Source: a bacterium
Lineage (GTDB): Bacteria; Actinomycetota; Acidimicrobiia; Acidimicrobiales; CATQHL01
Assembly: GCA_026708055.1 (NCBI GenBank)
Contig: JAPOVS010000019.1
Coordinates: forward strand, 188,532-252,531
DNA length: 64,000 nt
Direction: 5' to 3'
Part shown: positions 11,119 through 32,048 of the stretch, piece after piece
How positions within the stretch are numbered: the stretch's first letter is position 1
Layout of the letters: every line of letters begins with the position of its first letter
The notes under the pieces: model-generated
Database searches by the model: none
Seen by the model: only the letters and a program-made list of their open reading frames with translations
What the model was told of the DNA's origin: nothing
Made by a program: the position numbers and the translations under genes

Positions 11119-11195
11119 GTCCTCGCCTCCCCCCTCGCCGGTGGGCTCCGGCACGCACCGAGCGCTTCGCAGTTGCCTCGGCCCGCCCCCGATGC

Positions 11196-11201
11196 TAGAC
11201 G
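11196..11201 (+). promoter_or_regulatory. Candidate -10 of a leaderless amidase transcript
   Basis: TAGACG ends exactly 7 nt before ATG 11209, and no Shine-Dalgarno sequence precedes that ATG. The same 7-nt geometry occurs before the genes at 30597 and 31395. Confidence 0.35.
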
Positions 11202-11208
11202 GCTTGTC

Positions 11209-12657: not shown

Positions 12658-12728
12658 GCGGCCCGCTGGCCTGCTGAGTCAGCCGGGGGCCGCGCTCCGG
12701 GCACGGCACCGGCGCCGGAGGGGGGAGC

Positions 12729-13904
12729 ATGCCACTGCAGGACCACATGAAGATCATCTCGATCGACGACCACGTCATCGAGCACCCGCGGGTCTTCCAG
12801 GACCGGCTGCCGGCGCACGCCCGCGAGGCCGGCCCCCGCGTCATCGAGAAGGAGCTCGACACCACCGACCAGTACGGCAACGCCATTACCGGGTCCCAGG
12901 AGCTCTGGCTCTACGAGGGGCGCGAGTACCCGCAGTTCGCCCTGAACGCGGTCATCGACAAGGACCCGAAGGACTTCGGCCTCGAGCCCTACCGGTTCGA
13001 CCAGATCCTGCCCGGCTGCTACGACCCCGCCGAGCGGGTCAAGGACATGGACATCGACGGGGTGTGGGCGCAGCTGTGCTTCCCGTCGTTCCCCCGCTTC
13101 GGCGGCACGCTGTTCCTGGAGAGCGAGGACCGGGACCTGGCGCTGCTGTGCGTGCAGGCCTACAACGACTTCATCATCGACGAGTGGGCGGGCACCGAGC
13201 CCGAGCGCCTCGTGCCGATGATCATCGTGCCGCTGTGGGACCCCGCCCTGGCGGCGGCGGAGGTGCAACGCGGCGCGGCCAAGGGCGCCAAGGCCGTCAC
13301 GTTCCCCGAGGCGACGACGCCGCTCGGCCTGCCGTCGTTCCACACCGACCACTGGGACCCGTTCTTCGCCGCCGCCCAGGACACGGGGCTGCCGGTGTTC
13401 ATGCACTTCGGCAGCTCGGGCAAGCCGCCCGAGACGGCGCCGGACGCTCCGATCGTGGTGTGGATCTCCACGATGGGCACCAACTCGATGGTGTGCGCCG
13501 CCGACCTGGTGTTCTCGCCGCTCTTCCACAAGTTTCCCGGCCTGCGGGTCGGTCTCGCCGAGGGCGGCATCGGCTGGATCCCCTACCTGCTGCAGCGCAT
13601 GGACTTCGTCTGGGAGCGCCACCGCTGGTACACCGGCATCAACACCGAGGCACCCCCGTCGGAACTGTTCCGCAAGCACATCTGGGGCTGCTTCATCGAG
13701 GACGAGGCCGGGCTGCGGGAGCGGGAGTTCATCGGCATCGACCACATCTGCTTCGAGTCGGACTACCCGCACTCCGACTCGCTGTGGCCCAACGCCCGCA
13801 AAAGACTCTCCGAGATGCTCGCCGGCGTGCCCGACGGCGAGGCCGCCCGCATAGCCGAACTGAACGCCCGCGAACTCCTGAGCTTCGACGCCGATCTCCG
13901 CTAG
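12729..13904 (+). CDS. Amidohydrolase family 2 (TIM-barrel metal-dependent hydrolase)
   Basis: Amidohydrolase_2 family, which includes decarboxylases and hydrolases acting on ring-cleavage products (ACMSD-like). It is 391 residues long. The N-terminal metal motif is IDDHVIEHP, a His-X-X-Glu variant common in actinobacterial members. Further metal or substrate residues are in VFMHFGSSG, the acidic LAEGGIGW segment and ESDYPHSDSLWP near the C-terminus. ATG 12729 follows GGAGGGGGGAGC closely; a TATCGT -10-like element lies inside the end of the amidase gene (about 12645). Together with the NicX-like and amidase genes it may form a small aromatic or amide degradation group (inference). Confidence 0.88.
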   Translation: MPLQDHMKIISIDDHVIEHPRVFQDRLPAHAREAGPRVIEKELDTTDQYGNAITGSQELWLYEGREYPQFALNAVIDKDPKDFGLEPYRFDQILPGCYDPAERVKDMDIDGVWAQLCFPSFPRFGGTLFLESEDRDLALLCVQAYNDFIIDEWAGTEPERLVPMIIVPLWDPALAAAEVQRGAAKGAKAVTFPEATTPLGLPSFHTDHWDPFFAAAQDTGLPVFMHFGSSGKPPETAPDAPIVVWISTMGTNSMVCAADLVFSPLFHKFPGLRVGLAEGGIGWIPYLLQRMDFVWERHRWYTGINTEAPPSELFRKHIWGCFIEDEAGLREREFIGIDHICFESDYPHSDSLWPNARKRLSEMLAGVPDGEAARIAELNARELLSFDADLR

Positions 13905-14330: not shown

Positions 14331-14441
14331 ATGGGCGCCTCCCGGTGCGGCCCGGCGGGCGGCTGCCGGCTCGAGGCGGCCCGGAGCCACTAGGCGGCCG
14401 CCGATGATGGGCGTCTCCCGGTGCGGCCCGGCGGGCGGCTG
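14331..14441 (+). repeat. Duplicated gene start (35-bp direct repeats) before the giant gene
   Basis: Positions 14331-14365 and 14407-14441 are identical except for one base. The downstream copy encodes the first residues of the giant protein's signal peptide (from its second Met). The upstream copy opens a 20-codon mini frame, ATG 14331 to TAG 14391-14393, reading MGASRCGPAGGCR and ending early. It could be a relic of a previous start or an upstream ORF. Confidence 0.8.
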
Positions 14442-17400
14442 GCGGAGGTTGCTGCCGCTCGTCTCGGTGGCGGGGTTGCTGGGCGCTCTGCTGCTGGCGG
14501 CGCCGGCGCCGGCCGCCGCGCAGACCACGCCGACCATTACGGCCGCCTACTCGTCCTTCTTGGGGCCGGAGGGCGACGCGGGCCACACCGACGTGACGGT
14601 GACCTTCACGCTGACCAACCCGAACGATGGCTCGACCAGCTTCCAAGTCTGTCTGAGCGGCACCGCCGCGCTGGGCGACGACTACGAGTACACCGACACA
14701 GCCGGCGACCCGCATATCCTCGACTCGAACGGGTGCCACAACATCAGTTTCTCTTCCGGCGGCACTCACGGGACCGGCCCCCATCAGTACGTCACCAAGC
14801 TGCGGATCATCGGCGACACGGAGAACGAGCGCCGGGACGACACCATCATCGTGACCATCGGATCGGCCACCAACGGGGCCACGGTCCCCCGGCCGACCGA
14901 CATCTACACCATCGTCAACGACGACTGGGAGGCCAACGCCGACGGCAGCTGGCCCGTGCCCGAGAACTGGGGGCTGACTCCCAGCGGCCTCGAGCCGGGC
15001 GACCGGTTCCGGCTGCTGATCAAAACCTGGTGGCGGACGGCGGCCACCCACCACGAAATCGCCAGATACGACGAATTCGTCCACACGGTCCTGCGCAACG
15101 CCGTCCACCCGGTTCTCAAGGACAGACAATTCGTGACGGCCTGGCAGGCCGTGGGCAGCACGCCCACCACCGACGCCCGGGACCACCTGGGCATGTGGTC
15201 CGACGGCGCCTGGACCGACACCAACACCGCCGAGGACCCGAACGCCAACACCGCCGTCTACTGGCTCAGCGGGGCCAAGGTGGCGGACAACTACGCCGAA
15301 TTCTGCAGCGCCTCCTGGGACACGACCGGCCATGTCCCCACGTCCGACGAGAACGGCAACCAGGGCGCCAACGAGAACCCCTGGACCGGCTCCCGACCCG
15401 ATTGCACCGGCAGCAACTTCCAGCTGTCCAAGCAGCACGTCCGGGTGGGCGGCGTCGGCGGGCCGCTGACCGAACCCGGCCCGAACAAGAACTTCCTGCG
15501 CGACGAGCAGCGCCAGATCTTCGGCCTGTCGCCGGTGCTGCTGGTCACCGAAGCGCCCGCGGTGGAGACCGGGCCGAGAGTCACCCTCGCCCTGACGAAT
15601 GCGGCCCGGACGGAGGCAAGGACCGCGGGGCCGGAGGGGAATGCGGGGCTGGACGACGTTTACCTGCGGATCACGGCGCTCGACCTGAACCCCGGCCAGA
15701 CCGACGTCAGAATCTGCCTGGGCGGCGCCGCCACCCTGGGCGTCGACTACAAGTTCACCAACTATCACAACGACAATGATGTATTCGGCGTGGTCAACGG
15801 ATGCCTCACCCACTATATGAGTCGGATCGGCAACCGGGCCGAGGGAGTCGTCGTCCAGCGGCTGCGGGTCGTCGGCGACGCGGTGAAGGAGTCCGACGAG
15901 ACCATCACCGTGACCGTCGTGTCGGCCAGCAACGGCGTCAGCGTCTCCGAGCCCACGGTCACCTACACCATCGAGGACGACGACACGCCCGAACTCTCGG
16001 TGAGCCTGTCCGCCACCGAGGGCGCCGAGGGCGATTCGCCATTCAACGACGTCACGGTGCAGGTGGGCATAGCTCCCACCCACTCCGCCGGCACGGGCAT
16101 AAGGCTCTGCTTCTCCGGCACGGCGACCCGCGGCAGCAGCGGCGACTACCAGATCACCAGTCTCAGCAACAATCCCTGGAGCATCGACGCGGAGGGGTGC
16201 GCAAGGTACAACCTGGCCGGCGGGTCATCGGGCAATTCTCTGAAGTTCCGGATCAGGGGCGACCTGGTAGCCGAACCCGACGAGACGATCATCGTCACGG
16301 TCCACAGCCATACCCCCGGAGTGCGCACAGACGCCGACCGGCGCACCGCCACCTACACCATCACCGACGACGACCCGGAACTCTCGGTGCGGCTGGGTGA
16401 GACCGCGGCGGCCGAGGGCAACACGGGCCATACCGACGTCAGTCTGTTTGCGAACCTATCGGTCACGAAGCTGCAGCACCATCACTTCCGGATCTGTTTC
16501 TCCGGCACGGCGACCCGCGGCTCCGGCGGTGACTACATCGTCATCGGGTTGGACGGGCGGGAGTTGGGGGTCGGCGCCGACGGCTGCGGCCCCACCATCG
16601 GGTACGGCGCCGCCGGGGATCTCCATTTCAAGATCCGGATCCTCGGCGACACGGTGCCCGAACGGGACGAGACGGTGGTCGCTGTCATCGAGAGCCGCTC
16701 GGCCGGTCTGGGCGTCAACCCCGATCAGGAGACGGTCACCTACACCATCGAGGACGACGAACCGAGAATCGGGGTGAGCCTGGGGTCGATCTCTGGCGCA
16801 GAGGGCGACTCCGGCGGGACCGACATCGATTTGAACATCGAAATATCTCCCCCCCTGACCGAGCTCACCTGGATACATCTCTGTTTCACCGGAACGGCGA
16901 CCCACGGCAGCGACGGGGACTGGGTCTACTACAACCCTCCCAACGACACCAGTCTGTGGACGCTCGGAGCCGACAATTGCGAAGCCTTCAGCCTGCCCGC
17001 CACATGGACAGGGCATCGGCTCAAGCTCCGCATTATCGGCGACACGCTGCCGGAACCCGACGAGACGGTGACCGTCACGATCAACAGCCTCACCGAAGCC
17101 ACCGGCGTCGACCTCGACAAGCGCACCGCCACCTACACCATCCGGAACGACGAACCCACGCTCTCGGTACACCTTGCGTCGGACGAGGGAGACGAGGGAC
17201 ACAGCGGCCTGACCGACGTCAACGTGGACGTGAAGTTGTCGCCCTTCCGATCCGAGGCCACCAGCGTGAAGCTCTGTCTGTCCGGCACGGCAACGGAGGG
17301 CAGCAGCGGCGACTACCGGGTCTCGGACCACCACAACCGTGACTGGAGTTTCGACGCCGGCGGGTGCTCCGGCGCCTTTTCCCTGGCGGCCGAAGCAGTG

Positions 17401-20400
17401 GAGCACTCGCTGAAGCTCCGCATTGCCGGCGATACCGTCCCCGAAGCCGACGAGACGGTGACCGTCACTGTGCACAGCGAAACCGCCGCCGTCGGCGTGG
17501 ATCCCGAACGGGGCTCGGCCACCTACACCATCCGCGACGACGAGCCGCGGCTGCGGGTGACCCTGGGGCAGAGCGCGGGCGACGAGGGCGATACGGGTCA
17601 TACCGACGTCAGCGTGCACCTGAACCTTTCGCCGCCCCTGGCGGCGCCCGCGGCCGGCATAAAACTCTGCCTGACCGGCACGGCCGCCCGGGGTGCCGGC
17701 GGGGACTACCAGTTCGTGGATGCCCGCAGCCCTCCCGTGACCATCGGCGCGGACGGCTGCAGCGGCGCGTTCTCCCTGCCCGCCGGAACAACGGGCCGGT
17801 CCTTCAAGCTCCGGATCAGCGGCGACAACGCCGGCGAGGCCCACGAGACGGTGACTGTCACCGCGCGCAGCGACAATGCCGCCGTCGGCGTGGACCCCGA
17901 ACGGGGTTCGGCCACCTACACCATCCGCGACGACGAACCCATGCTCTCGGTGCGCGTCTTGCCGACGTCGGGCACCGAGGGCGACTCCGGCCTGACCGAC
18001 GTGGCCGTGGACGTGGACCTGTCCTCCGCCCGCTCCGAGGCCACCAGTGTGAACATCTGCTTCTCCGGCACGGCAACGCTGGGCGCCGGCGGCGACTACC
18101 GGGTCTCCGACTACAACGACAATTACTGGACGATCAACGCCCAGGGGTGCAGCGGCGCCTTCAACCTGAATGCCGGCGTGACGCACCACGGGCTCAAGCT
18201 CCGCATCAGCGGCGACACGGTTCCCGAAGCCGACGAGACGGTGACCGTCAGCGTTCACAGCGAGACCCCCGGAGTGGGCACAGACGCCGACGGGGGCACC
18301 GCCACCTACACCATCACCGACGACGAACCGCAACTCTCGGTGCGGCTGCCCAGGACCGCGGGGGCCGAGGGCAATACGGGCCATACCGACGTCAGCCTGG
18401 TGACGAACCTCTCGGTCGCGAAGCTGGCGCACCATCACTTCCGGCTCTGTTTCTCCGGGACGGCGACCCACGGCGCCGGCGGGGACTACATCGTCATCTC
18501 GTGGGACGGGCAGGAGATGACGCTCGGCGGCGACGGCTGCGGCCCCACCATCGGGTACGGTCGCGCCGGGGATCTCGGTTTCAGGATCCGGGTCCTGGGC
18601 GACGCGGTGTTCGAACGGGACGAGACGGTGGTCGCTGCCATCGAGAGCCGCTCGGCCGGTGTGGGCGTCCGAACCGGCCGGGGCACGGTCACCTACACCA
18701 TCACCGACGACGACAGCGGCCTCAATCCCGACGGCACCCGGCCGGTCCGCGCCGACTGGGAGCTCAAGCCGGCGGGCTTGGACGTCAAGAGCAAGTTCCG
18801 CCTGCTGTTCAAGACGTCCACCCGCACCCAGGCCGGCGCCGCGGACATCGCCGACTACGACGACTTCATCCGCACCGCCCTGGCCGCCACCGGCCACGGC
18901 CGCGACCCGGCCTACCGGCAGGGCTGGAAGGCCGTCGGCAGCACCGCCGCGGTGGACGCTCGCGAGCACCTGGACATGTGGTCGGGCGGCGCTTGGACCG
19001 ACAAGGACGCCAGCATCCCCATCTACTGGGTGAACGGCAACAAGGCGGCCGACAGCTACGCCGACCTCTGCGACGGCAGCTGGGACAGCGCCGGACAGCG
19101 GGACGCCCGCGACGAGGCCGGCAAAGCCGCACTCATCGACGGGCCCTGGACGGGCTCCGACAACGACTGCACCGGACACGCCAACCACCTGGGCCACGCC
19201 GCCTCGGTGCGGCAGGGCGCCAGCGCCGGCCCGCTGAGCCACGCCGCCGGCCCCCCGGCTGACCGCCACACCATGTTCGCCCTGTCTCCGGTGTTCATTG
19301 TCACGCCGGCCGAGCCTGTCCACGTCTTCTTCGAACCCAGGGACTCGGTCATGACCGAGGGTCTCAGTACGGACCCGGCGGCCGTGGACATGCGGCTGAG
19401 CCGGGCCTTGAGCGCCGGCGAGTCCCTGACTGTCCAGCTCAGCCAGGACCACATCGGCAAGAAATGGGACTACGCCCTGGCCGGCGCGCCCGCCGGGGTG
19501 ACCCTGGACGCCGCCGCCGGGCGGCTCACCATGAACGGCGACGCCGCGCCCCAGACCGTGACCGTCAACGTGATCGCCCGCGACCACCTGGTTGCGGGCG
19601 ACCAGCAGGGCGCCGCCGGCTTCTTCATCCAGCTGGACTCGGTCAAGGGCGGCACGACGGCGGTCACGGCGGACACGGGCGCCGACAACCGGCTGCTGCT
19701 GGCAGTCAACGACGGCGACACCACCGGGCCGAGGGTCCGCGTGTCGGCGTCGCCGACCACGGCGCGGGAGGGCGCCAGCGTCACCCTCACCTTCACCCTG
19801 AGCGCCGGCCGCAGCGAGGACACGGCGGTGCAGTTCGTGGTCGCCCGCAGCGGCCAGGAAGTGGGCGCGCCCACCGGAACCGGGGTCAGCGTCGCGGGCG
19901 GCATCGCCACCGTCTCCATCCCCGCCGGCCAGACCACGGCCACGGCCACCCTGCCCATCGTGGACGACGCCGACATCGAGGACGACCACCACATCTATGT
20001 CATGCTGGGCGACCAGCCGGCCGGGGTGCGCGCCGGCGCCCGCGCCCTCGGGCCGGGCTTCGCCAGGGTCAACATCCAGAGAACGCCCGTGGTCTCGCTG
20101 AACCTGGCGTCCGCCGAGGGGCCGGAGGGCGCCACGGGCTATACCGACGTCAGGGTGGACGTGGACGTGGATCCCACCCACACGCAGGCCATCAGCCTGG
20201 AAATCTGTTTCATCGGAACGGCCACCCGCGGCGCCAGCGCGGACTACCAGGTCACCGGCCTCGTCAACAATCCCTGGACTCTCGACGGCGACGGGTGCAG
20301 TTCCGCCTTCACCCTGCCCCCGGGCGCGGCGGGCGCTTCCCTCAAGCTCCGCATCCGGGGCGACACGGACGTTGAAGACGACGAGACGGTGACGGTCTCC

Positions 20401-23400
20401 CTGCTCACCACCACCGTCGAAATCGCCGTCGACCCGGCCACGGCCACCTACACCATCCGCAACGACGACGTCGGCGTCGCGCTGAGCCTGACGGCCACCG
20501 AGGGGCAAGAAGGCGGCACGGGCTACACCGACGTGGGCGTGCAGGTGAGCATCGCTCCCGTCCACACCGCGGCCGTTTCCCTGAAGCTCTGTTTCACCGG
20601 AACGGCCACCCACGGCGCCAGCGCGGACTACCAGGTCACCGACCTGGCCGACAGTCCCTGGACTCTCGACGGCGACGGGTGCAGTTCCGCCTTCACCGTG
20701 CCCCCCGGCTCGGCGGGCACTTTCCTCAAACTCCGCATCCGGGGCGACGCGGACGTGGAAGACGACGAGACGGTGATCGTCGCCGTTTCCACCACCACCG
20801 CCGGCGTCGGCGTTCACCCCGACCGGTCCACGGCCACCTACACCGTCCAAGACGACGACATCGGATTCTCCATCACCCTGGCGCGAACCGAGGGAGCCGA
20901 GGGCAGTTCGGGCCATACCGACGTCGACCTGACCGTGGGCCTCAACAGAACCTTGGAGTACACCGCCGAGTACCGGCTCTGTCTCGCCGGAACCGCGACG
21001 TACGGCGCCGGCGCCGACTACCAGGTCTGGCGACGCTCCTTTGCGGCGATTCTCGATGACGACGGATGCCTCAGCGGCGGCGTCCGCTTCGGCGACACGA
21101 GCTACACGCTCCGACTCCGGGTCAACGGCGACGCGGACATCGAATTCGACGAGACCGTGGTCTTCACCGTTTCCAGCAGCACCGCAGGCGTCAGCGTCCA
21201 GCCCGGCCGGGACACTTTGACCTACACCATCCGCGCCGACGAACCCGCCTTCTCGGTGAAACTGGCGCAAGCCGAGGGCGTCGAGGGCGATTCAAGCTAT
21301 GCCGAGGTCGGCGTGACGGCGACCCTCTCCGGGGCCGCCTCGGGGACCAAGTGGGCGCGGCTGTGCTTCTCCGGGACGGCAGCCCACGGCAGCGGCGGGG
21401 ACTTCCGGGTCTTCACTGCGGGCGGGGGCGAGCTGGGTGTCGGCGGGAACGGCTGCGCCACGCCCTTCCGGTTCTCCGGCAACGGCGATGTCCTCATCAA
21501 TCTCCGCGTCTCCGGCGACACCACTCCCGAGCAGGACGAGACCATCATCGTCACCATTGTCCCCCACACCCCGGGCGTCGCCGTCGTCCCCGGCCATTCC
21601 ACCGCCACCTACACCATCACCAACGACGAACCGATGTTCTCGCTGAGCCTGCCCACCGCCGAGGGGCCGGAGGGCGATTCGGGCCACACCGACGTCGCCT
21701 TCGCGGTGAACATCCCCACCGCCCTGACGACTGCCCCCCCGTACACTATCTGCTTCGGCGGAACCGCGACGTACGGCGCCGGCGAGGACTTCACGGTCGT
21801 CAACGACCGCGGTGCTCCGTTGGGCGTTACCAACAAGTGCGCCAACCACGCAATACGTCGCAACGAGAGCAGCCGCGCCCTGTTCTTCCGGGTGCGGGGC
21901 GACGCGCAGTTCGAGCCCGACGAGACGATCATCGTCACCATCACCAGCGGGACGGCCGCAGTCGGCGTCGTGGCCGGCCAGTCTTCTGGCACCTACACCA
22001 TCCGGAACGACGAGCAGAAACTCAGCTTTTCCCGCAGCGAATACATAGCGTTCGAGGGCACCGTTCTCGGCGCGGAGATGCGCCTGGCCAAGCCACGCAC
22101 CGAATGGACCAGTTTCACCGTCGTGGTGACCCCCGGCACCGCCACGGCCGGCCAGGACTATGGAACCAGCACGAACACCCGGCTCAGTGTCGGCATCCCG
22201 CCCGGCACGACCGAGAGCGCTTTCAACATAGGAATCAACAACGACCAGACGGAGGATGACGGCGAAACCTTCACGATAGAGATTGACGAGAGCACAGTGC
22301 CCGCCGGAGTCACAGTGGGCAGCCCGAAGCGGGCCACGGTCACCATCCGGGAAGGCATTACGGTAGGCTTCGTCACCTCCACCACGCTTGTGTCTGAGAG
22401 CGCGGGGGATCACGACCTGACGGTCAGCTTCTCCCGAGCGAGCCCCGCCTTCACCCTCCATTACACGACGCCGGGTAGCACGGCGGTCTGCGGCTACGAC
22501 TACACCATCTGGACCCGCGCCGGCGGCAACTGCAGTCGGAGCATCGAGGTGGCCAGCGGGGCGGAATCCGTCCGGATGCCGTTGAGCATCAAGGACGACG
22601 ACGCGCCGGAGCAATCCGAGCTAATCAGGATCAAGCTGCAGTCCGACCATGCCGGCGTCACGGTGACCACGGGCGGTGCAGAAAGTCATGCCGTTCTGAT
22701 CAGCGACAACGACACCCCGCCGGAAGCCCCGAACGTGACGGCGAGCCTGTCCGACGTGGCCTCGGGCCGGGTGGAGAGCGTGATCGAAGGCACGCGCCGG
22801 GTCCTGGACATCGCGGTGGACCCGGCGGCCAAAGCCCGCTTCCACCTGTACGCCACCGTGGCCCACAAGGCCAACCCCGATCCGACCCTGCGCCAGCCCT
22901 TCACCATCGACGACACGGAAAGCGCGGACATGGCGCAGCTGGAGCATGTGATCTACGAGTTCGCGCCGGGCGCCACCGCGGGCGAGCTCGTCTTCGGAAC
23001 CGTCGACGACAACATCGTGGAAGACGACGCGACCATCACCTTCACCCTGAAGAAGAGCGGCGCCGCCCGGGGCGTCGACATCAGCTCCAGCAAGGGTTCC
23101 ATCGACGTATTGGTCCGGGACGACGACTCGGCGGAGGTGTACTTCTACCGGAAAACCGATGGCGGCAATATTTTCGTGCATCTGAAACGGCCGGTGGAGT
23201 TCCGCATCAAGATCAATGTCCACAAGACGGATGGGAGCATCGTCACTGGGGAATTGGGGGATCACAAGAAGGATGCCGCTGACAGACTCCTCGTCGCCGT
23301 GGACACGGAGACCGCCGATTTCGCCGAAATCGATTACGTCCACATCGAGGTGCCGAACTCGGCCCGGCATGACTGGCTCTACACCGGACACCCCTGCATC

Positions 23401-26400
23401 GTGTCTACCGAGATGGACGGGTCCGTCGCGCCCGCCGACCGGCCCGACTGCGGCAGCGACATGAACGCCTACACGGTCCGGCGCGAACTCGCTAAGCCCG
23501 CCGCCACCGCGCCGACGGTGAAACTGGCGGCCGTTGCGCCGGTCCCCGTGTCGGGCGCCCCGTCGCGCAACGCCGACGGCTCCTACACCGTGCCGGCCGA
23601 CTGGCCGCTGGTCCCCGGCAATCTGGAACCCGGCGACAAGTTCCGGCTGCTGTTCCGCACCACTAGCCGGTGGAGTCCGACCGGAACCAGAAACATCTCC
23701 ACCTACGACGGTTACGTGCAGTCCGAGATCACCGGCGGCAGCCTGGACGCCATCAAACCCTACGCCGCGGACTTCAAGGTGGTGGGCTCCACCAGACGCC
23801 AAGGTGTTGGCGTTGACATCCGGACTCACCTGGACCTGCGCTCCGGCGGCAACTGGCGCCCCGGCATACCCATTTTCTGGATGGACGCCCAGGGTGACGG
23901 CAGGCTGGTCGCCGACGATTACGAGGACTTCTGCGACCGGGAGCAGGAACTGGAGGACGCGGACAACAGCCCCCAGATCTGGTGGAAGAACGACAACCTG
24001 GCCGACCAGCGCAACGAGGACGGCGCGAGTCACACCGACAGCAACGCGCCCTTTACCGGCAGCAACAACGACTGCACCCCGCATTTCCGCCACCTGGGCT
24101 ACGCGGGCCACAACGTCTACGGCGCCCACCGCGACGGGCGGAGCGGCGGGCCGCTGAACACCGGGATCCGGTCGGACTACGACCAGGCCTCTCTCTACGG
24201 TATGTCGCCGGTGTTCGTGGTGGGGCCGCCCGCCAGAGTGTTCGAGGGCGGCAGCCTGATCTGGAGCCTGACGGCCACCCCGGCGCCCGCCGAGCCGCTG
24301 GTGGTCTGGGTGTGGGCCAGCCAAGCCGGCGGCGACTTCGTGGACCGCCGCTACCTAACCCGGCGCGACGTGGTCATCCCCACCAGCGGGAGGGCGACCG
24401 TCACCATCCCCACCGTCAACGACGATAAAGAGGAGAACGACGGCTGGGTGGAGCTGGAAATCCTCCGCCTGTACGGCAGCGGCGGCTTCACGGTCGCTGG
24501 GGGAGACGGCGGGCGCAGCCTGCGCCTGCCCGTGCTGGACGACGACGGTGATGGAACTCAGGGAGTGCCGCTGTCGGCGGAGCCCCCGGCCGGCGACCCG
24601 GAGGTGAACATCACGTCCACCCTCACCGCCGGCGTCGAGGGCCGTGCCGTGGAGTACCGCCTGACCGCCAATCCGCGCCCCGCCGCGGACCTGACCGTGA
24701 CGGTGACCATCGGCCAGACCGGAGACTTCGTGGCGGCCGGCGAGCTGGGACGGCGGAAGGTGACCATCACGCCCCGCGGCATCAAGGACATCATCATCCC
24801 CACCGTCGACGATGCAGTGGACGAACCCGACGGCGCGGTGACGCTGACCATCGAGACGGGCAGCGGCTACACCGTGGGACCGTTGTCCGCTGAGACCCTG
24901 ACCGTGGCGGACAACGACGCGCCGCCGCCGCCCGAGCAGCCCCAAGTGGACACCTCGGAAGTGGAGCAGCTGATCCAGCAGATGATCGTCCGGCACCGCG
25001 ACGTGACCGGCAACGCCGGCGCGCTGGCCAACTGGGAGAAGGCCCTCAGGTCGGTGCGCGGCGAGCCCGGCGGCTTCACCATCGCCGAGCTGGAGGCCCA
25101 CGCGGCGTCCGTGGAGGCGGGCGCGCCGCGGGAGCGCTGGCAGAAGGTGCTGGACATCGTGAAGCAACTGGCAGCGGCGGCGCAACAGCAGCTAACGCCG
25201 CCTCCGCTCCCAGAGGTCAGCGTCGCCGCTGGAGCGGGCGTCACCGAGGGCGGCTCGGCCTCCTTCACGGTCACTGCCGACCCGGCGCCGTCGGCCCCGC
25301 TGAGCGTGAGTGTCACGGTCAGCCAGACGGGCGACTTCGGCGCGGCCACCGGCGTCAAGTCGGTGAGCATCCCTACCGGCGGCTCGGCGCAGTACACCGT
25401 CGCCACGGTAGGCGACGAGGTTGACGAGGCCGACGGATCGGTGACCCTCACGGTGAACGCCGGCGAGGGCTACACCGTGTCGTCGAGTCACGGCACCGCG
25501 TCGGTGGCGGTGGCCGACGACGACGACCCGCCGGTGGGGACGCCGGAGATCAGCGTCGCCGCTGGAGCGGGCGTCACCGAGGGCGGCTCGGCCTCCTTCA
25601 CGGTCACTGCCGACCCGGCGCCGTCGGCCCCGCTGAGCGTGAGTGTCACGGTCAGCCAGACGGGCGACTTCGGCGCGGCCACCGGCGTCAAGTCGGTGAG
25701 CATCCCTACCGGCGGCTCGGCGCAGTACACCGTCGCCACCGCAGGCGACGAGGTTGACGAGGCCGACGGATCGGTGACCCTCACGGTGAACGCGGGCGAC
25801 GGCTACACCGTGTCCTCCGGCCACGGCTCGGCGTCGGTGGCCGTCGCGGACGACGACGACCCGGCGCCCGCGGTTGTGCCGACGGTGAGCGTCACCGGCG
25901 GGGCGGGCGTGACCGAGGGCGGCTCGGCCAGCTTCACGGTCACTGCCGACCCGGCGCCGACGGCCGCGCTGACTGTCAGCGTGACGGTCATCGGGAGCGG
26001 CGACTTCGGCGCCGCGGCGGGCGCGGCGACCGTGACGGTCCCCGTCGGCGGCAGCGTGTCCCACGCCGTGGCCACGACCGGCGACAGCGCCGACGAGCCC
26101 GACGGCTCGGTCACGCTCACGGTGGACGCGGGCGGCGGCTACACGGTGTCGCCGGCCCGGCCCGCGGCGACGGTGGCCGTGGCCGACGACGACGACCCGC
26201 CGCCGCCGAGTTGTGTCACCGGCGACGCGGCGCTGCTGGGGCAGGTGCTGGCGAAGACCGCCGATCCGTGGGGCGGGGCGCGCCCGGATCTGGTGGAGAC
26301 GTTCACCCGCGCCTACGACACGATGCTCGGCGACGACGACTACACGGTCGCGGACCTCAAGGCCCGCCCGGACCGCCGGACGCCGAACTGGCAGGGCGCC

Positions 26401-28287
26401 GGCCCCAACGCGCTGTGGCAGAGCATCTACGCCGAGTTGGACAGCCTCGAGGCGTGCCGCGAGTCGGCGGGCACGCCGCCGCCGCCCGCGGCGGCGCCGG
26501 AGGTCAGCGTGACCGCCGGGGCGGGCGTCGCCGAGGGCGCCGCCGCGTCGTTCACGGTGTCGGCGAGCCCGGCGCCGTCGGCGGCGCTGACGGTGGTGGT
26601 GACGGTCACTCAGGCCGGCGAGTTCGGCGCCGCGGTCGGCGCGCGGACCGTTGAGGTCCCCACGGGCGGCAGCGTGAGCCTCACGGTGGCCACGGCCGGC
26701 GACGGCGTCGAGGAGGCCGACGGGTCGGTGACGGTGACGGTCAACGCGGGCAGCGGCTACACCGTGTCATCGACGGGGGGCGCGGCGACGGTCGCGGTCT
26801 CCGACGACGACCAGCAGACCCCCACGCCTCCGCCGCCGCAGGTGCCCGAGGTCGGCGTGACCGCCGGCGGCGGGGTCACCGAGGGCCAGAGCGCCTCGTT
26901 CACCGTCTCGGCGAGCCCGGCGCCGTCGTCCGCGTTGGCCGTGACGGTGACGGTCACCCAGAGCGGCGACTTCGGGGCTTCGACGGGGACGAGGACCGTC
27001 GTCGTCCCCACCAGCGGCAGCAAGTCCTACAGCGTCGCCACCGTCGGCGACGATGCCGACGAGCCGGACGGGTCGGTCACCGTCACGGTGAAGGCGGGCA
27101 GCGGCTACACCGTGTCGTCGTCCCAGGGCGCCGCGACGGTGACCGTGGCCGACGACGACGACCCGCCGCCGACGCCGGTGCCGGTGGTCAGCGTCACCGC
27201 CGGCGGCGGCGTGACCGAGGGCGGCACGGCGCGCTTCACCCTCACCGCCGACAGAGCGCCCGCCTCGCCGCTGTCGGTGCGGGTGACGGTGACCCAGAGC
27301 GGCGACTTCGGCGCCTCCGCGGGCACCAGGACCGTGACGATGTCCGGGCGCGTCGCCCGCGTCAGCGTCGCCACCGTCGGCGACGGCGCCGATGAGGCCG
27401 ACGGGTCGGTCACCGCCACCGTCGAAGCCGGGCAGGGCTACGCGGTCTCGTCGTCCAAGGCGACCGCCTCGGTGTCGGTGGCCGACGACGACGCCACGAC
27501 CGTGGCCCTCGCCGGCGCCGCCGGCGGCAGTGTGGCCGAGGACGGCGGCGCCCGCGAGGTCACCCTCGCCCTCGGCCGCGCCCTCGCCGCCGGCGAGTCC
27601 CTCACGGCGCCGCTGTCGGTGACCGGCGCCGCCGCCGGCGGCCACTACACGCTCGCCCTCAAGCAGGGCCAGGGCCTCAACGGGCACGTGACGCTGCTCA
27701 CGGGTGCGCCCCACAGCGCCCAGAACCCCGCGGTGGCGTTCGCCGCGGGCGCCCGGACGGCGACGCTCGTGCTGACGGCGCTGCCCAACGACGACACCGC
27801 CGAGCGCACCGTGCGCATCGCCTTCGGCGCCGGGCGGCGCGCCCCCACCGGCCAGGGCCTCAACGGCGGCGTCGCCGCCAGCGGCGGACCCGTCGAGGTC
27901 GCCATCGCCAACGACGACGCCCCGCCGCCGCCGGACACCGACCTGCCCACGGTCACCATCGACGACGCCCGCGACGTCGAAGGCGACGTGTTCTACCTCG
28001 GAGGGCTCCTGGAGTTCCGGGTCACCCTCAGCGAGGCGTCCCCCGAGCCGGTCACGGTCACATGGGCCACCGAGGAGGGCACCGCCGACAGCTATGTCGA
28101 CTTCGCCGAGGTCCGCGGCAGGACCCTCACCTTCGAGCCCGGCCGGACCCGCAAGACCATCATCGTGCTCATCTCCGGCGACCGCAGGCGCGAGGCCGAC
28201 GAGACCCTGAAAGTGGTCCTGTCCGGCCCCGTCGGCGCCACCATCGCCCGAGGAACCGCCACCGGCACCATCATCGACGACGACTAG
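14404..28287 (+). CDS. Giant secreted Calx-beta repeat protein, 4627 residues
   Basis: Predicted secreted adhesin or matrix-like protein. A signal peptide (residues 1-39, cleavage near APAAAQ) is followed by 14 repeats of about 120-128 residues resembling Calx-beta domains. Each starts with an EGxxGxTDV segment, carries a Cys in a C(L/F)SGTAT strand and a second Cys about 30-40 residues later, and closes with ETVTVT...YTI.DDE acidic calcium-type turns. They occupy about residues 49-173, 390-1437 and 1895-2535. A 200-220-residue module (W.L.P.GLEPGDRFRLL, VGST, YWxxGxKxADxY, DCTG, SPV) occurs at about 178-384, 1441-1635 and 3053-3274. Residues 2536-3050 hold divergent Cys-free repeats. Residues 3275-4627 hold shorter Cys-free Calx-beta repeats, interrupted by helical inserts at about 3515-3600 and 3936-4021. 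There is no LPXTG motif and no C-terminal membrane anchor; it ends on a complete Calx-beta turn. The start could be ATG 14404 or 14407. Confidence 0.9.
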   Translation: MMGVSRCGPAGGWRRLLPLVSVAGLLGALLLAAPAPAAAQTTPTITAAYSSFLGPEGDAGHTDVTVTFTLTNPNDGSTSFQVCLSGTAALGDDYEYTDTAGDPHILDSNGCHNISFSSGGTHGTGPHQYVTKLRIIGDTENERRDDTIIVTIGSATNGATVPRPTDIYTIVNDDWEANADGSWPVPENWGLTPSGLEPGDRFRLLIKTWWRTAATHHEIARYDEFVHTVLRNAVHPVLKDRQFVTAWQAVGSTPTTDARDHLGMWSDGAWTDTNTAEDPNANTAVYWLSGAKVADNYAEFCSASWDTTGHVPTSDENGNQGANENPWTGSRPDCTGSNFQLSKQHVRVGGVGGPLTEPGPNKNFLRDEQRQIFGLSPVLLVTEAPAVETGPRVTLALTNAARTEARTAGPEGNAGLDDVYLRITALDLNPGQTDVRICLGGAATLGVDYKFTNYHNDNDVFGVVNGCLTHYMSRIGNRAEGVVVQRLRVVGDAVKESDETITVTVVSASNGVSVSEPTVTYTIEDDDTPELSVSLSATEGAEGDSPFNDVTVQVGIAPTHSAGTGIRLCFSGTATRGSSGDYQITSLSNNPWSIDAEGCARYNLAGGSSGNSLKFRIRGDLVAEPDETIIVTVHSHTPGVRTDADRRTATYTITDDDPELSVRLGETAAAEGNTGHTDVSLFANLSVTKLQHHHFRICFSGTATRGSGGDYIVIGLDGRELGVGADGCGPTIGYGAAGDLHFKIRILGDTVPERDETVVAVIESRSAGLGVNPDQETVTYTIEDDEPRIGVSLGSISGAEGDSGGTDIDLNIEISPPLTELTWIHLCFTGTATHGSDGDWVYYNPPNDTSLWTLGADNCEAFSLPATWTGHRLKLRIIGDTLPEPDETVTVTINSLTEATGVDLDKRTATYTIRNDEPTLSVHLASDEGDEGHSGLTDVNVDVKLSPFRSEATSVKLCLSGTATEGSSGDYRVSDHHNRDWSFDAGGCSGAFSLAAEAVEHSLKLRIAGDTVPEADETVTVTVHSETAAVGVDPERGSATYTIRDDEPRLRVTLGQSAGDEGDTGHTDVSVHLNLSPPLAAPAAGIKLCLTGTAARGAGGDYQFVDARSPPVTIGADGCSGAFSLPAGTTGRSFKLRISGDNAGEAHETVTVTARSDNAAVGVDPERGSATYTIRDDEPMLSVRVLPTSGTEGDSGLTDVAVDVDLSSARSEATSVNICFSGTATLGAGGDYRVSDYNDNYWTINAQGCSGAFNLNAGVTHHGLKLRISGDTVPEADETVTVSVHSETPGVGTDADGGTATYTITDDEPQLSVRLPRTAGAEGNTGHTDVSLVTNLSVAKLAHHHFRLCFSGTATHGAGGDYIVISWDGQEMTLGGDGCGPTIGYGRAGDLGFRIRVLGDAVFERDETVVAAIESRSAGVGVRTGRGTVTYTITDDDSGLNPDGTRPVRADWELKPAGLDVKSKFRLLFKTSTRTQAGAADIADYDDFIRTALAATGHGRDPAYRQGWKAVGSTAAVDAREHLDMWSGGAWTDKDASIPIYWVNGNKAADSYADLCDGSWDSAGQRDARDEAGKAALIDGPWTGSDNDCTGHANHLGHAASVRQGASAGPLSHAAGPPADRHTMFALSPVFIVTPAEPVHVFFEPRDSVMTEGLSTDPAAVDMRLSRALSAGESLTVQLSQDHIGKKWDYALAGAPAGVTLDAAAGRLTMNGDAAPQTVTVNVIARDHLVAGDQQGAAGFFIQLDSVKGGTTAVTADTGADNRLLLAVNDGDTTGPRVRVSASPTTAREGASVTLTFTLSAGRSEDTAVQFVVARSGQEVGAPTGTGVSVAGGIATVSIPAGQTTATATLPIVDDADIEDDHHIYVMLGDQPAGVRAGARALGPGFARVNIQRTPVVSLNLASAEGPEGATGYTDVRVDVDVDPTHTQAISLEICFIGTATRGASADYQVTGLVNNPWTLDGDGCSSAFTLPPGAAGASLKLRIRGDTDVEDDETVTVSLLTTTVEIAVDPATATYTIRNDDVGVALSLTATEGQEGGTGYTDVGVQVSIAPVHTAAVSLKLCFTGTATHGASADYQVTDLADSPWTLDGDGCSSAFTVPPGSAGTFLKLRIRGDADVEDDETVIVAVSTTTAGVGVHPDRSTATYTVQDDDIGFSITLARTEGAEGSSGHTDVDLTVGLNRTLEYTAEYRLCLAGTATYGAGADYQVWRRSFAAILDDDGCLSGGVRFGDTSYTLRLRVNGDADIEFDETVVFTVSSSTAGVSVQPGRDTLTYTIRADEPAFSVKLAQAEGVEGDSSYAEVGVTATLSGAASGTKWARLCFSGTAAHGSGGDFRVFTAGGGELGVGGNGCATPFRFSGNGDVLINLRVSGDTTPEQDETIIVTIVPHTPGVAVVPGHSTATYTITNDEPMFSLSLPTAEGPEGDSGHTDVAFAVNIPTALTTAPPYTICFGGTATYGAGEDFTVVNDRGAPLGVTNKCANHAIRRNESSRALFFRVRGDAQFEPDETIIVTITSGTAAVGVVAGQSSGTYTIRNDEQKLSFSRSEYIAFEGTVLGAEMRLAKPRTEWTSFTVVVTPGTATAGQDYGTSTNTRLSVGIPPGTTESAFNIGINNDQTEDDGETFTIEIDESTVPAGVTVGSPKRATVTIREGITVGFVTSTTLVSESAGDHDLTVSFSRASPAFTLHYTTPGSTAVCGYDYTIWTRAGGNCSRSIEVASGAESVRMPLSIKDDDAPEQSELIRIKLQSDHAGVTVTTGGAESHAVLISDNDTPPEAPNVTASLSDVASGRVESVIEGTRRVLDIAVDPAAKARFHLYATVAHKANPDPTLRQPFTIDDTESADMAQLEHVIYEFAPGATAGELVFGTVDDNIVEDDATITFTLKKSGAARGVDISSSKGSIDVLVRDDDSAEVYFYRKTDGGNIFVHLKRPVEFRIKINVHKTDGSIVTGELGDHKKDAADRLLVAVDTETADFAEIDYVHIEVPNSARHDWLYTGHPCIVSTEMDGSVAPADRPDCGSDMNAYTVRRELAKPAATAPTVKLAAVAPVPVSGAPSRNADGSYTVPADWPLVPGNLEPGDKFRLLFRTTSRWSPTGTRNISTYDGYVQSEITGGSLDAIKPYAADFKVVGSTRRQGVGVDIRTHLDLRSGGNWRPGIPIFWMDAQGDGRLVADDYEDFCDREQELEDADNSPQIWWKNDNLADQRNEDGASHTDSNAPFTGSNNDCTPHFRHLGYAGHNVYGAHRDGRSGGPLNTGIRSDYDQASLYGMSPVFVVGPPARVFEGGSLIWSLTATPAPAEPLVVWVWASQAGGDFVDRRYLTRRDVVIPTSGRATVTIPTVNDDKEENDGWVELEILRLYGSGGFTVAGGDGGRSLRLPVLDDDGDGTQGVPLSAEPPAGDPEVNITSTLTAGVEGRAVEYRLTANPRPAADLTVTVTIGQTGDFVAAGELGRRKVTITPRGIKDIIIPTVDDAVDEPDGAVTLTIETGSGYTVGPLSAETLTVADNDAPPPPEQPQVDTSEVEQLIQQMIVRHRDVTGNAGALANWEKALRSVRGEPGGFTIAELEAHAASVEAGAPRERWQKVLDIVKQLAAAAQQQLTPPPLPEVSVAAGAGVTEGGSASFTVTADPAPSAPLSVSVTVSQTGDFGAATGVKSVSIPTGGSAQYTVATVGDEVDEADGSVTLTVNAGEGYTVSSSHGTASVAVADDDDPPVGTPEISVAAGAGVTEGGSASFTVTADPAPSAPLSVSVTVSQTGDFGAATGVKSVSIPTGGSAQYTVATAGDEVDEADGSVTLTVNAGDGYTVSSGHGSASVAVADDDDPAPAVVPTVSVTGGAGVTEGGSASFTVTADPAPTAALTVSVTVIGSGDFGAAAGAATVTVPVGGSVSHAVATTGDSADEPDGSVTLTVDAGGGYTVSPARPAATVAVADDDDPPPPSCVTGDAALLGQVLAKTADPWGGARPDLVETFTRAYDTMLGDDDYTVADLKARPDRRTPNWQGAGPNALWQSIYAELDSLEACRESAGTPPPPAAAPEVSVTAGAGVAEGAAASFTVSASPAPSAALTVVVTVTQAGEFGAAVGARTVEVPTGGSVSLTVATAGDGVEEADGSVTVTVNAGSGYTVSSTGGAATVAVSDDDQQTPTPPPPQVPEVGVTAGGGVTEGQSASFTVSASPAPSSALAVTVTVTQSGDFGASTGTRTVVVPTSGSKSYSVATVGDDADEPDGSVTVTVKAGSGYTVSSSQGAATVTVADDDDPPPTPVPVVSVTAGGGVTEGGTARFTLTADRAPASPLSVRVTVTQSGDFGASAGTRTVTMSGRVARVSVATVGDGADEADGSVTATVEAGQGYAVSSSKATASVSVADDDATTVALAGAAGGSVAEDGGAREVTLALGRALAAGESLTAPLSVTGAAAGGHYTLALKQGQGLNGHVTLLTGAPHSAQNPAVAFAAGARTATLVLTALPNDDTAERTVRIAFGAGRRAPTGQGLNGGVAASGGPVEVAIANDDAPPPPDTDLPTVTIDDARDVEGDVFYLGGLLEFRVTLSEASPEPVTVTWATEEGTADSYVDFAEVRGRTLTFEPGRTRKTIIVLISGDRRREADETLKVVLSGPVGATIARGTATGTIIDDD
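14935..15555 (+). other. Recurring module A, copy 1, inside the giant protein
   Basis: Encodes about residues 178-384: DGSWPVPENWGL, LEPGDRFRLLIKT, AVGSTPTTDARDHL, VYWLSGAKVADNYAEF, paired Cys (SASWD region and DCTGS) and a closing GLSPVLLVTE. I know the pattern from large secreted proteins of environmental bacteria but not a domain name. Copies 2 and 3 follow at 18724 and 23560. Confidence 0.7.
18724..19310 (+). other. Recurring module A, copy 2, inside the giant protein
   Basis: Encodes about residues 1441-1635: GTRPVRADWELKPAGLD, FRLLFKTSTRTQ, AVGSTAAVDAREHLDMW, IYWVNGNKAADSYADLCDG, NDCTGHANHLGH and ALSPVFIVTP. It follows the ninth Cys-type Calx-beta repeat, as copy 1 follows the first. 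Confidence 0.7.
23560..24225 (+). other. Recurring module A, copy 3, inside the giant protein
   Basis: Encodes about residues 3053-3274: GSYTVPADWPLVPGNLEPGD, FRLLFRTTSRWS, VVGSTRRQG, IFWMDAQGDGRLVADDYEDF, NNDCTPHFRHLGY, GMSPVFVVGPP. It has a longer middle than copies 1 and 2 and marks the switch from Cys-type to Cys-free repeats. Confidence 0.7.
25218..25883 (+). repeat. Recent tandem duplication of a Calx-beta repeat (333-bp period)
   Basis: Two units offset by 333 bp (111 codons) are identical for the first 189 bp. They differ at only two bases (25407 and 25409 against 25740 and 25742) over about 240 bp, including synonymous sites. Neighbouring repeats are far more diverged, so this pair arose or was homogenised recently. 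It could also be an assembly weak point. Confidence 0.85.
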
Positions 28288-28380: not shown

Positions 28381-30390
28381 TCAGATCTCGCGTCCGGCCT
28401 TCTCGCCCTCGTAGATGGCGATGATGGTGCGCCGGGGGGCAACGGCGTCACCGACCTGGTGCACGGCGGGGTAGGCGCCCTCGATCTCGCGGAACAACGC
28501 GTCGTTGGGCGTGCGCAGCAGGCTGAGCACCACGGTGTCCACCGTCTCGCTGCGGCGCCAGCCTCCCCACATGCTGTACACCTCGGCCTCGGCGCCGTTC
28601 ACGGCTTCGACGAACGCGTTGGCCGTGAGACGCACGCCCTTGCCCTCCAGGCGGGGATAGATGTGGCTCCCCTCGAGGGCGCCGGCGACGTTCTCGCCGA
28701 CGACGGCGCGGGGGCAGACCACCTCGACGGAGGCCCCATGGTCGGCCAGCAGTTCGGCGAGCCCGAGGGGCAGGTACTCGCCGGTGTCGTCCACGATCAG
28801 CACGCTGCCGCCGAGGGCGGCGGGATCTTCCAGGGCCGCCACGATGGCAGAGCCGATGTCAACGACGTTGTCCTGGTCGGCGCCCGGCAGTTCGTCCCGG
28901 TCGGTGCGGGTGACGCTGAATCCGGTGCAGTCCCAGGTGGATCCGGTGGCGCAGACGACCGCGTCGGGGGCCTCGCCGTCCAGCAGCTCCCGGGTGACGT
29001 CGACGCCCGTGCGCACCTCCACGCCGCCGGTGCGCATCTCCGTCAGGAGGTTGTCGATGGCGTCCTGCCAGGCCGTGCGCGTCGGCAGGTGCTTGATGAG
29101 GTTGATGTGGCCGCCGAGCTCGTCGGACCGCTCGAACAGGACCACCCGGTGGCCGCGCCTGCCGGCCACGGCCGCGCTCTTCATGCCGGCCGGCCCGCCG
29201 CCCACGACCACGACCTTCTTGGCGCGCTCGCTGGCGACCGCTTTCAGCGACCCTTCGCCCCATTCCGCCTCCCGCCCGGTGACCGGGTTCACCATGCAGA
29301 AGATGTCGCGCTGCTGGAAGTTGCGCAGGATGCACTCGTTGGCGCCGACGCAGATGTGCGTCTCGTGCTTGCGCCCTTCCTGGGCCTTGCGGACGAGCGC
29401 GGGGTCGGTGATGTGGGCGCGGGTCATGCAGACCATGTCGGCCCAACCGTTCGCCACGATGTCGGCGGCCATGTCGATATGCCGGATCCGCCCGACGATG
29501 AACACCTTGGCGCGGTCGCCGACCACCTCCTTGGCGCGCCTGCCGAAGGGGATCATGAAGCCGTCGGGGACCGACATGGGTGCAACCGCCAGGTGAAGGT
29601 TGTGGTAGTTGCCCCCCGACAGGTCGAAGAAGTCGAAGTGGCCGGTCTCGGCCAGGATGTCCAGGATCTCCTCGCTCTGTTCGCCGGTGATGCCGGCCTC
29701 GCCGGCGAACTCGTCGAACGACAGGCGGATGCCCATCGTGAAGTCGCCGACCTCGCAGCGGACCGCGTCGGCCACCTCGATGGCGAACCGGCAGCGGTTG
29801 CGCACCGATCCGCCGTACTCGTCGGTGCGGCGGTTGTAGAACGGGCTGAGGAACTGGGCGATGCCGTAGCTGTGGGCGCCGTGCAGTTCCACCCCGTCGA
29901 GCCCCGAGCGCTTGACGTTGCGGACCGACTGCACGTAGCCCTCGATGAGCGAGCGGATCTCCCGCTTGCCGACCACGTGGGGGATCTCGTTGTGGATCAC
30001 CGACGGCACCCGGGAGACGCCCCAGAGGGGATGCCAGGGCGAGAACATGTGGCCTTTGTCCTGCACGCCCATGATGGCGAGTTCGATGAACATGGCGCAG
30101 TCGTGTTCGTGGACGGTCTCGGCCAGGCGCTCCATCTGGGGGATGCAGCGCTCCTCCCAGGCCGTGATGCAGTTGTAGAACGAGCCCAGGCTGAGTTCGT
30201 GGGCGGCGTGCTGCTCGCTGATCAGCAGGGCGAGGCCGCCCTTGGCCCGCTCGCGGTAGTAGGCGATGTGCCGGTCGCTGAGGACGTGGTCCTTGCTGTA
30301 GGCGAGGCTGTGCGCGCTGGTCATCACCCGGTTCTTGAGGGTCGTGGCGCCCACCTCCAGCGGCTGCCACAGGACATCCAGATTCGACAT
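28381..30390 (-). CDS. Old-yellow-enzyme / 2,4-dienoyl-CoA-reductase-type flavoprotein
   Basis: Two-part flavoprotein of 669 residues. Residues 1-345 form an FMN-binding TIM barrel with the family segments ELHGAHSYGIAQFL and NRRTDEYGGS. From about 385 a FAD/NAD(P)-binding half starts with VVVVGGGPAGM. Such enzymes (FadH, trimethylamine dehydrogenase) pass electrons from NAD(P)H or to acceptors through a [4Fe-4S] cluster. Here the cluster motif reads CVGANECILR...FC: three of the four Cys are present, and the second (usually C-X2-C) is Ala. ATG 30390 is supported by GAGGGGGG 6 nt upstream; the in-frame TTG 30396 is less likely. It is monocistronic and divergent from the HupH-like gene. The substrate is unknown. 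Confidence 0.88.
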   Translation of the reverse strand: MSNLDVLWQPLEVGATTLKNRVMTSAHSLAYSKDHVLSDRHIAYYRERAKGGLALLISEQHAAHELSLGSFYNCITAWEERCIPQMERLAETVHEHDCAMFIELAIMGVQDKGHMFSPWHPLWGVSRVPSVIHNEIPHVVGKREIRSLIEGYVQSVRNVKRSGLDGVELHGAHSYGIAQFLSPFYNRRTDEYGGSVRNRCRFAIEVADAVRCEVGDFTMGIRLSFDEFAGEAGITGEQSEEILDILAETGHFDFFDLSGGNYHNLHLAVAPMSVPDGFMIPFGRRAKEVVGDRAKVFIVGRIRHIDMAADIVANGWADMVCMTRAHITDPALVRKAQEGRKHETHICVGANECILRNFQQRDIFCMVNPVTGREAEWGEGSLKAVASERAKKVVVVGGGPAGMKSAAVAGRRGHRVVLFERSDELGGHINLIKHLPTRTAWQDAIDNLLTEMRTGGVEVRTGVDVTRELLDGEAPDAVVCATGSTWDCTGFSVTRTDRDELPGADQDNVVDIGSAIVAALEDPAALGGSVLIVDDTGEYLPLGLAELLADHGASVEVVCPRAVVGENVAGALEGSHIYPRLEGKGVRLTANAFVEAVNGAEAEVYSMWGGWRRSETVDTVVLSLLRTPNDALFREIEGAYPAVHQVGDAVAPRRTIIAIYEGEKAGREI

Positions 30391-30416
30391 CGTCAACCCC
30401 CCTCGGATCGGCCCGC

Positions 30417-30561
30417 ACGCAGGGTGTTCGGCCCCGCCGCCGAACAGTACTCCCCGGATTCTCTGGATCCCGGCCTGCGCCGGGATGACGGTCGGGGCGT
30501 GTTCGGTCCCCCGGCCGACGCAGGGTGTTCGGTCCCCCAGCCGAACAGTACTCCCCGGATT
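30417..30561. repeat. 44-bp direct repeats with internal hairpin in a divergent promoter region
   Basis: Units 30417-30460 and 30518-30561 share nearly all bases. Each contains the inverted repeat GTTCGG...CCGAAC and ends in CAGTACTCCCCGGATT. A third partial copy (GTGTTCGGTCCCCCGGCCGA) lies at 30500-30519. Palindrome copy 4 sits between the two units. Confidence 0.8.
30467..30486. repeat. Dispersed palindromic repeat, copy 4
   Basis: ATCCCGGC-CTGC-GCCGGGAT, a variant with compensating changes in both arms, which argues that the hairpin itself is conserved. It sits in the divergent spacer between 30390 and 30597. Confidence 0.75.
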
Positions 30562-30583
30562 GGCAGCGGGCGCGGGGAGGCGT

Positions 30584-30589
30584 CAGACT
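30584..30589 (+). promoter_or_regulatory. Candidate -10 of a leaderless HupH-like transcript
   Basis: CAGACT ends 7 nt before ATG 30597. The nearest GGAGG is 16 nt upstream of the ATG, too far for normal initiation. Confidence 0.3.
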
Positions 30590-30596
30590 GCCGGGT

Positions 30597-31349: not shown

Positions 31350-31381
31350 CCGAGGCGTGGCCTAGCGTCGCGCGAACTACG

Positions 31382-31387
31382 TATACT
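31382..31387 (+). promoter_or_regulatory. -10 box of the VapBC operon
   Basis: TATACT, 5 of 6 matches to the consensus, ends 7 nt before ATG 31395, predicting a leaderless transcript. The surrounding TACGTATACTTAGGCGTAT is rich in CGTAT elements that could bind the autorepressing antitoxin. Confidence 0.45.
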
Positions 31388-31394
31388 TAGGCGT

Positions 31395-31643
31395 ATGCCG
31401 AGGATGCAGGTGTACTTGCCCGAGGATCTTCACGCCGAGGTGAAGGCACACGACCTTCCCGCTTCGGAACTTCTGCAGGAGGCTGTGCGTGTCGAACTCC
31501 ATCGCCGCCAGCTGGCCCGAGCAGGAGAGGAGTACCTGTCGGAGCTGCTCGCAGAGGTGGGAACCCCGGACGCTGCGCAGACCGCGTGGGCGCGGGAGTT
31601 GGCCGAGCGGCTGGCTCGCCGCGCTGACCGGAGGGCGGGCTGA
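31395..31643 (+). CDS. VapB-like ribbon-helix-helix antitoxin
   Basis: An 82-residue protein with an N-terminal ribbon-helix-helix pattern (MPRMQVYLPEDLHAEVKAHD, then a helix from LPASELLQEAV) for DNA binding, and a basic/acidic C-terminal tail that would cover the toxin. The next gene, a PIN toxin, begins at the base after its TGA. It is expected to neutralise VapC and repress its own promoter, where a TATACT -10 box lies 7 nt upstream of the start. Confidence 0.85.
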   Translation: MPRMQVYLPEDLHAEVKAHDLPASELLQEAVRVELHRRQLARAGEEYLSELLAEVGTPDAAQTAWARELAERLARRADRRAG

Positions 31644-32027: not shown

Positions 32028-32048
32028 AGCGTGCTCGGACAGGACACC

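Follow-up and report, generated by a model that had tools for sequence, protein, structure and literature searches.

Endostatin, the domain of collagens XV and XVIII (PF06482; structures 1bnl, 1koe, 1dy0, 1dy1, and 1dy2), is basic and heparin-binding, contains two nested disulfides, and sits at the collagen end. Bacteria have secreted or surface-located endostatin-like proteins of their own, and Pfam holds a related family, DUF1554 (PF07588). Among the bacterial proteins are the Len proteins of Leptospira, for which binding to laminin, fibronectin, and complement regulators is known (PMC2063517). Calx-beta domains (PF03160; NCX1/CALX CBD1) occur extracellularly in demosponge aggregation factors (PMC10815962), and Calx-beta is reported as an enriched class of eukaryotic-like proteins in the symbionts of Ircinia (PMC9531527). 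Sponge metagenome-assembled genomes (MAGs) are, in addition, enriched in hydrolases for sialic acids and glycosaminoglycans (PMC8163846). The locus described here shares habitat, cross-phylum spread, and animal-like folds with the eukaryotic-like proteins of sponge symbionts (ankyrin, TPR, fn3, cadherin, Calx-beta); our literature search on these symbionts turned up no mention of an endostatin-like module by name.

We analyzed a 64,000-nucleotide stretch of DNA (the window) from an actinobacterium whose nearest named relatives are Acidimicrobiia. It encodes a giant secreted protein in which three copies of a module, termed module A, are set into long arrays of Calx-beta repeats; the module is predicted to have the endostatin fold.

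Architecture of the giant protein and pairing of its cysteines

The gene occupies positions 14404-28287 of the window on the plus strand, like every feature below, and is a single open frame that starts with ATG and encodes a multidomain protein of 4627 aa. Its codon-position GC of 0.65/0.54/0.91 is typical for coding sequence here and, together with the existence of homologues, rules out a chance ORF. By eye, the translation opens with a Sec-type signal peptide (aa 1-40, 14404-14523) that has an Arg-rich start, a hydrophobic core, and a final APAAAQ.

Cys-type Calx-beta repeat 1 (aa 50-174, 14551-14925, 81 bits against the repeat profile) precedes module A copy 1 (aa 176-388, 14929-15567; profile match, family alignment, and a Cys pair at 301/334), after which come repeat 2 (aa 405-527, 15616-15984, 77 bits) and repeats 3-9 (aa 529-1437, 15988-18714, seven matches at 168-188 bits). 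Copy 2 of module A (aa 1436-1640, 18709-19323, Cys 1556/1589), assigned through its AlphaFold2 model and endostatin match, leads into a Cys-free Calx-beta-like spacer that matches the repeat profile weakly (aa 1641-1894, 19324-20085) and then into repeats 10-14 (aa 1895-2538, 20086-22017, five matches at 156-181 bits). Standard Calx-beta domains follow (aa 2539-2910, 22018-23133), recognized by Pfam Calx-beta, which scores 44 bits in two stretches within 22015-22626, and holding a Cys pair at 2696/2710. Beyond them lie the third copy of module A, whose insert is longer (aa 3052-3280, 23557-24243, profile match, Cys 3177/3224), Cys-free repeats, and a first helix-like insert (aa 3511-3602, 24934-25209, phmmer matches in loci L008 and L084). 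The remainder comprises Cys-free Calx-beta repeats read by eye with weak repeat-profile matches (aa 3603-3930, 25210-26193; 74% protein identity to L028), a second helix-like insert (aa 3936-4025, 26209-26478, Cys 3937/4018, phmmer matches in L028, L093, and L053), and a last run of Cys-free repeats closed by a C-terminal Calx-beta domain ending in GTIIDDD (26491-28287; best Pfam stretch aa 4536-4627). Both inserts are without a Pfam family and are called helical from sequence alone; their recurrence in the relatives just named suggests that they are additional unnamed modules and not linkers.

The initial annotation had proposed a secreted protein of this length with three ~200-residue copies of module A, two helix-like inserts, a Cys-free array, and no sortase motif or membrane anchor, and each of these elements is present as described. 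By eye, no sortase motif, C-terminal membrane helix, or recognized anchor is visible in the window protein, which ends on a Calx-beta repeat, and no catalytic domain emerged when its full length was scanned with Pfam and NCBIfam. The annotated count of 14 Cys-type repeats is likewise exact by the repeat profile, with one, one, seven, and five repeats in the four blocks given above.

To characterize these repeats, we predicted the structure of the one at 15988-16377 (pLDDT 95.8). The model superimposes on CALX-CBD1 (3ead) with a Z score of 13.3 and 2.4 Å over 110 residues, so that the Cys-type repeat is clearly predicted to have the Calx-beta fold, and acidic positions near the repeat start and end are conserved. 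The earlier assignment of the repeats to Calx-beta is thus upheld by predicted structure and less well by profile: Pfam Calx-beta scores 111 bits on the whole window protein and recognizes the later Cys-free repeats, whereas two Cys-type repeats searched singly with default boundaries gave 16.7 bits and no match, respectively, against a cut-off of 27. The likeness to the Calx-beta family lies in the fold; the 14 repeats differ from it in each carrying a covarying Cys pair. This pair, which the initial annotation had noticed in each repeat, is all-or-none: 21 repeats, 14 of which come from the window protein itself, have both cysteines, 7 have neither, and 0 are mixed. In the model one cysteine, residue 41, lies within strand 36-44 and the other, residue 71, opens strand 71-76. 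We take these to be adjoining antiparallel strands in CBD1; a disulfide between the two cysteines is for this reason plausible. All 40 Cys of the mature window protein fall into 20 local pairs.

Predicted fold and ancestry of module A

The AlphaFold2 model of module A copy 2, computed on the family alignment, has a pLDDT of 94.3 and a pTM of 0.90. A Foldseek search with this model placed five endostatin entries on top, all with probability 1.00, and structural alignment to endostatin gave Z scores of 15.8-16.9 and rmsd values of 2.5-3.0 Å over 150-163 residues at 14-17% identity, covering nearly the whole module. The next structures were C-type lectins, a fold that we rejected for module A at Z scores no higher than 5.0; an enzyme was set aside as well, since no enzyme fold appeared among the matches listed. 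No match with E < 0.001 was found in a viral structure library.

Sequence searches place the module outside the named families. The 124 aligned module A copies have no convincing family match in Pfam or NCBIfam and none to Pfam Endostatin, and the module A profile has no match among PDB sequences. DUF1554 has no match in these 124 modules, in the window's genome, or in 149 genomes of one phylum. A DUF1554 search in nine genomes holding a sister clade of the module (see below) did return a weak match, which led to a set of bridging bacterial proteins. These score 13-25 bits against Pfam Endostatin (cut-off 29.4), and one of them matches both Pfam DUF1554 (4.5e-6) and Pfam Endostatin (1.7e-5), in each case slightly below the curated cut-off. 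In hhalign, module A aligns with the bridging bacterial family at 95.4% (E 1.7e-8), and at 94.4% after removal of the non-sponge branch of module A, compared with a maximum of 1.1% in 30 column-shuffled controls. These profile comparisons indicate that module A shares ancestry with a DUF1554/Endostatin-like bacterial family.

Since the predicted structure and an independent profile link agree, we call module A endostatin-like, by modeled fold and by profile, while it lies outside Pfam Endostatin and DUF1554 as these are defined. Recent capture of a gene from an animal was considered and rejected, given the 14-17% identity to endostatin and a sequence link that runs via bacterial families. In a separate observation, a bacterial protein encoded in locus L112 (760-1974) has a DUF1554/Endostatin-like domain after a collagen-like repeat, an order that it shares with the animal collagens XV/XVIII.

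Several features distinguish module A from endostatin. It is acidic where endostatin is basic (net charges of -7, -7, and -10 for the window's three modules; sponge-type median -6), and it sits in a bacterial Calx-beta array rather than at a collagen end. It has one Cys pair, found in 21 of the 124 copies; 103 copies have neither cysteine and 0 are mixed. On the tree, the two positions switched jointly on two independent occasions, and a raw Fisher value for this pairing overstates the evidence, because there are just these two changes. By description, the Len proteins differ from module A in being small surface proteins of a pathogen, as opposed to modules in giant, presumably stalk-like proteins. 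The initial annotation had presented module A as an unnamed module: unnamed it is in Pfam and NCBIfam, but its predicted fold is that of endostatin, a known binding fold, and the notion of structural novelty falls with this match. The earlier interpretation thus holds in part; it had missed the module's own Cys pair, its wide spread, and its occurrence largely in genomes from sponges.

Distribution of module A across genomes and phyla

Module A recurs 12 times on five contigs of the window's own genome, in three of the seven congeneric genomes listed, and in one genome of the same order; five of nine congeneric genomes, some of them incomplete, are without a match. Across the class it occurs in 12 of 296 genomes and 5 of 149 genera. 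On contig C22 of the window's genome we also observed a second giant paralogue (L113; 5018 aa, open at the contig end), which contains several additional copies of module A and, like the window protein, ends on a Calx-beta domain. One congeneric genome (G003) is COS4_bin_33, a Coscinoderma sponge bin (L010 inside L053; L016/L017 inside L041); the window's genus therefore has a member that lives in sponges, and the window's genome probably comes from a sponge as well.

A profile scan of genome contigs yielded 131 stretches that encode module A relatives, of which the best 80, corresponding to 76 loci, were kept, and 124 non-redundant copies were aligned. The resulting tree separates a clade of 108 copies from a clade of 16 with 99% support. 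Among the best 80 of 131 stretches, the smaller clade comprises 14 loci in non-sponge records, mostly single-domain PEP-CTERM proteins (the PEP-CTERM ends were identified by eye, except that of L080). Its small proteins (L080, L086, L092, and others) have a single module A, and one is from Crocosphaera watsonii. Because this sister clade lies in non-sponge records and is mostly PEP-CTERM, the ancestral role of the module would not have been sponge binding.

The larger, sponge-type clade presents a different picture. Among its 62 named loci (again from the best 80 of 131 stretches), 39 are in published sponge MAG sets: 22 are Ircinia bins, for which the jk18x naming matches PMC9531527 and p16x bins are taken as the same study, and 17 bear the prefixes RHO, COS, CAR, or APA, which fit the Rhopaloeides, Coscinoderma, Carteriospongia, and Aplysina aerophoba of PMC8163846. 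Another 20, fifteen in SB06 bins and five in CO36 bins, seem to belong to sponge sets as well, and the remaining 3 of the 62 are otherwise named. The large clade is thus almost wholly confined to sponge-derived genomes of at least eight phyla (Actinomycetota, Pseudomonadota, Chloroflexota, Acidobacteriota, Cyanobacteriota, Nitrospirota, Dadabacteria, and Latescibacteria), although the scan was seeded with sponge-type copies and kept the best 80 of 131, so that the sponge share is not a measure of enrichment.

On the module tree the phylum label changes 30 times, where the minimum is 10; this fits transfer of module A between phyla, and paralogy and misbinning also raise the count. L021 (labeled Gammaproteobacteria) and L093 (labeled Acidimicrobiia), for example, are 96.7% identical over 10.1 kb, which probably reflects a binning error or else a shared strain. 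Other carriers are secure, because long contigs make their assignment safe: L039 (Dadabacteria, 288-kb contig), L062 (Terriglobia, 154-kb), and L076 (Latescibacteria, 6.27-Mb chromosome).

The relatives display the module in ways that differ between lineages. As judged by eye, C-termini resemble autotransporter barrels in L032, L039, and L075, SLH domains in L058 and L078, and cell-wall-binding repeats in L048. The window protein, its own-genome paralogues L113 and L116, and the congeneric L053 all end on a Calx-beta domain; our guess is that this common ending may serve as the retention part. The window protein, having no recognized cell-wall anchor, may also leave the cell.

Proposed role in sponge symbionts

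We propose that the window protein is a secreted, stalk-like adhesin or recognition protein for the sponge matrix, with a Calx-beta rod and endostatin-fold binding heads, and consider this reading somewhat probable. As the best explanation it combines computed results (the folds, the pattern of paired cysteines, the paralogy, and the nearly exclusive presence of the sponge-type clade in sponge-derived genomes) with parts that we infer, namely the rod shape, calcium binding, disulfide formation, the ligand, and the biological role. In such a protein, the long Calx-beta arrays, mostly with one disulfide per domain, would form an extended rod, probably stiffened by calcium; the three endostatin-fold modules along it would act as ligand-binding heads, whose repetition would confer avidity. 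The ligand would most likely be a sponge matrix component or symbiont or host surface glycans, and the protein could hold the cell in the mesohyl or mark it as a resident. Matrix binding by the Len proteins provides a precedent for an endostatin-fold adhesin, as the demosponge aggregation factors do for Calx-beta domains outside the cell, and we count the mounting of the module on the relatives' own surface devices in favor of adhesion or recognition. Because the modules are acidic, we do not expect them to bind heparin the way endostatin does. This charge counts against the proposal, as do the non-sponge records of the sister clade, the missing cell-wall anchor, and the module's rarity in the class and patchy presence among congeneric genomes. 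The separate binding function suggested by the placement of module A is plausible, and the module is a candidate for how symbionts hold onto, or are recognized by, their sponge host.

Several alternatives can be set against this proposal. The modules could instead bind bacterial exopolysaccharide or neighboring bacteria, making the protein part of a symbiont biofilm or sheath rather than a grip on the host. PEP-CTERM proteins are usually linked to exopolysaccharide, and the sister clade consists mostly of small proteins of this kind; acidic modules could also bind glycans via calcium, and the window protein has no visible cell anchor. On its own, however, this explanation leaves the near-confinement of the multi-module clade to sponge genomes across phyla unexplained, and we regard it as rather unlikely. 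It is also quite improbable, in our estimation, that the protein mimics host matrix in order to escape uptake or alter host signaling instead of anchoring the cell. The extracellular Calx-beta domains of demosponge aggregation factors (PMC10815962), the enrichment of Calx-beta in Ircinia symbionts (PMC9531527), and the endostatin fold of module A would all suit mimicry, but identity to animal endostatin is just 14-17%, the surface charge differs, and a sequence link via bacterial families does not indicate recent animal capture.

Food capture, in which the modules would keep matrix glycans close to secreted hydrolases, appears very improbable. It would accord with the hydrolase enrichment of sponge MAGs (PMC8163846); on the other hand, the window protein has no detected catalytic domain, and the adjoining genes that we checked are not glycan enzymes. 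Those checked in the two flanks (2212-13904 and 28381-44779) encode peptide-type ABC transport parts, hydantoinase B, an amidase, an amidohydrolase, an Asp/Glu/hydantoin racemase, aspartate dehydrogenase, and a D-serine dehydratase-like protein, a catabolic neighborhood without an evident tie to the giant protein or clue to its role.

Beyond the sponge-matrix adhesin proposed for the window protein, we tentatively raise a broader idea, to which we give less than even weight: that sponge symbionts share this unnamed endostatin-fold family as a means of attachment or recognition, which would have passed from phylum to phylum inside sponges and which each lineage would carry on its own surface machinery. 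A single domain family with an animal-matrix fold, encoded by sponge-derived genomes from many phyla, offers a concrete protein for sponge-tissue binding tests. It adds a bacterial endostatin-like branch to a fold known chiefly from the collagens of animals, and it bears on the question of how a sponge comes to be settled by, and to tolerate, hundreds of unrelated bacteria.
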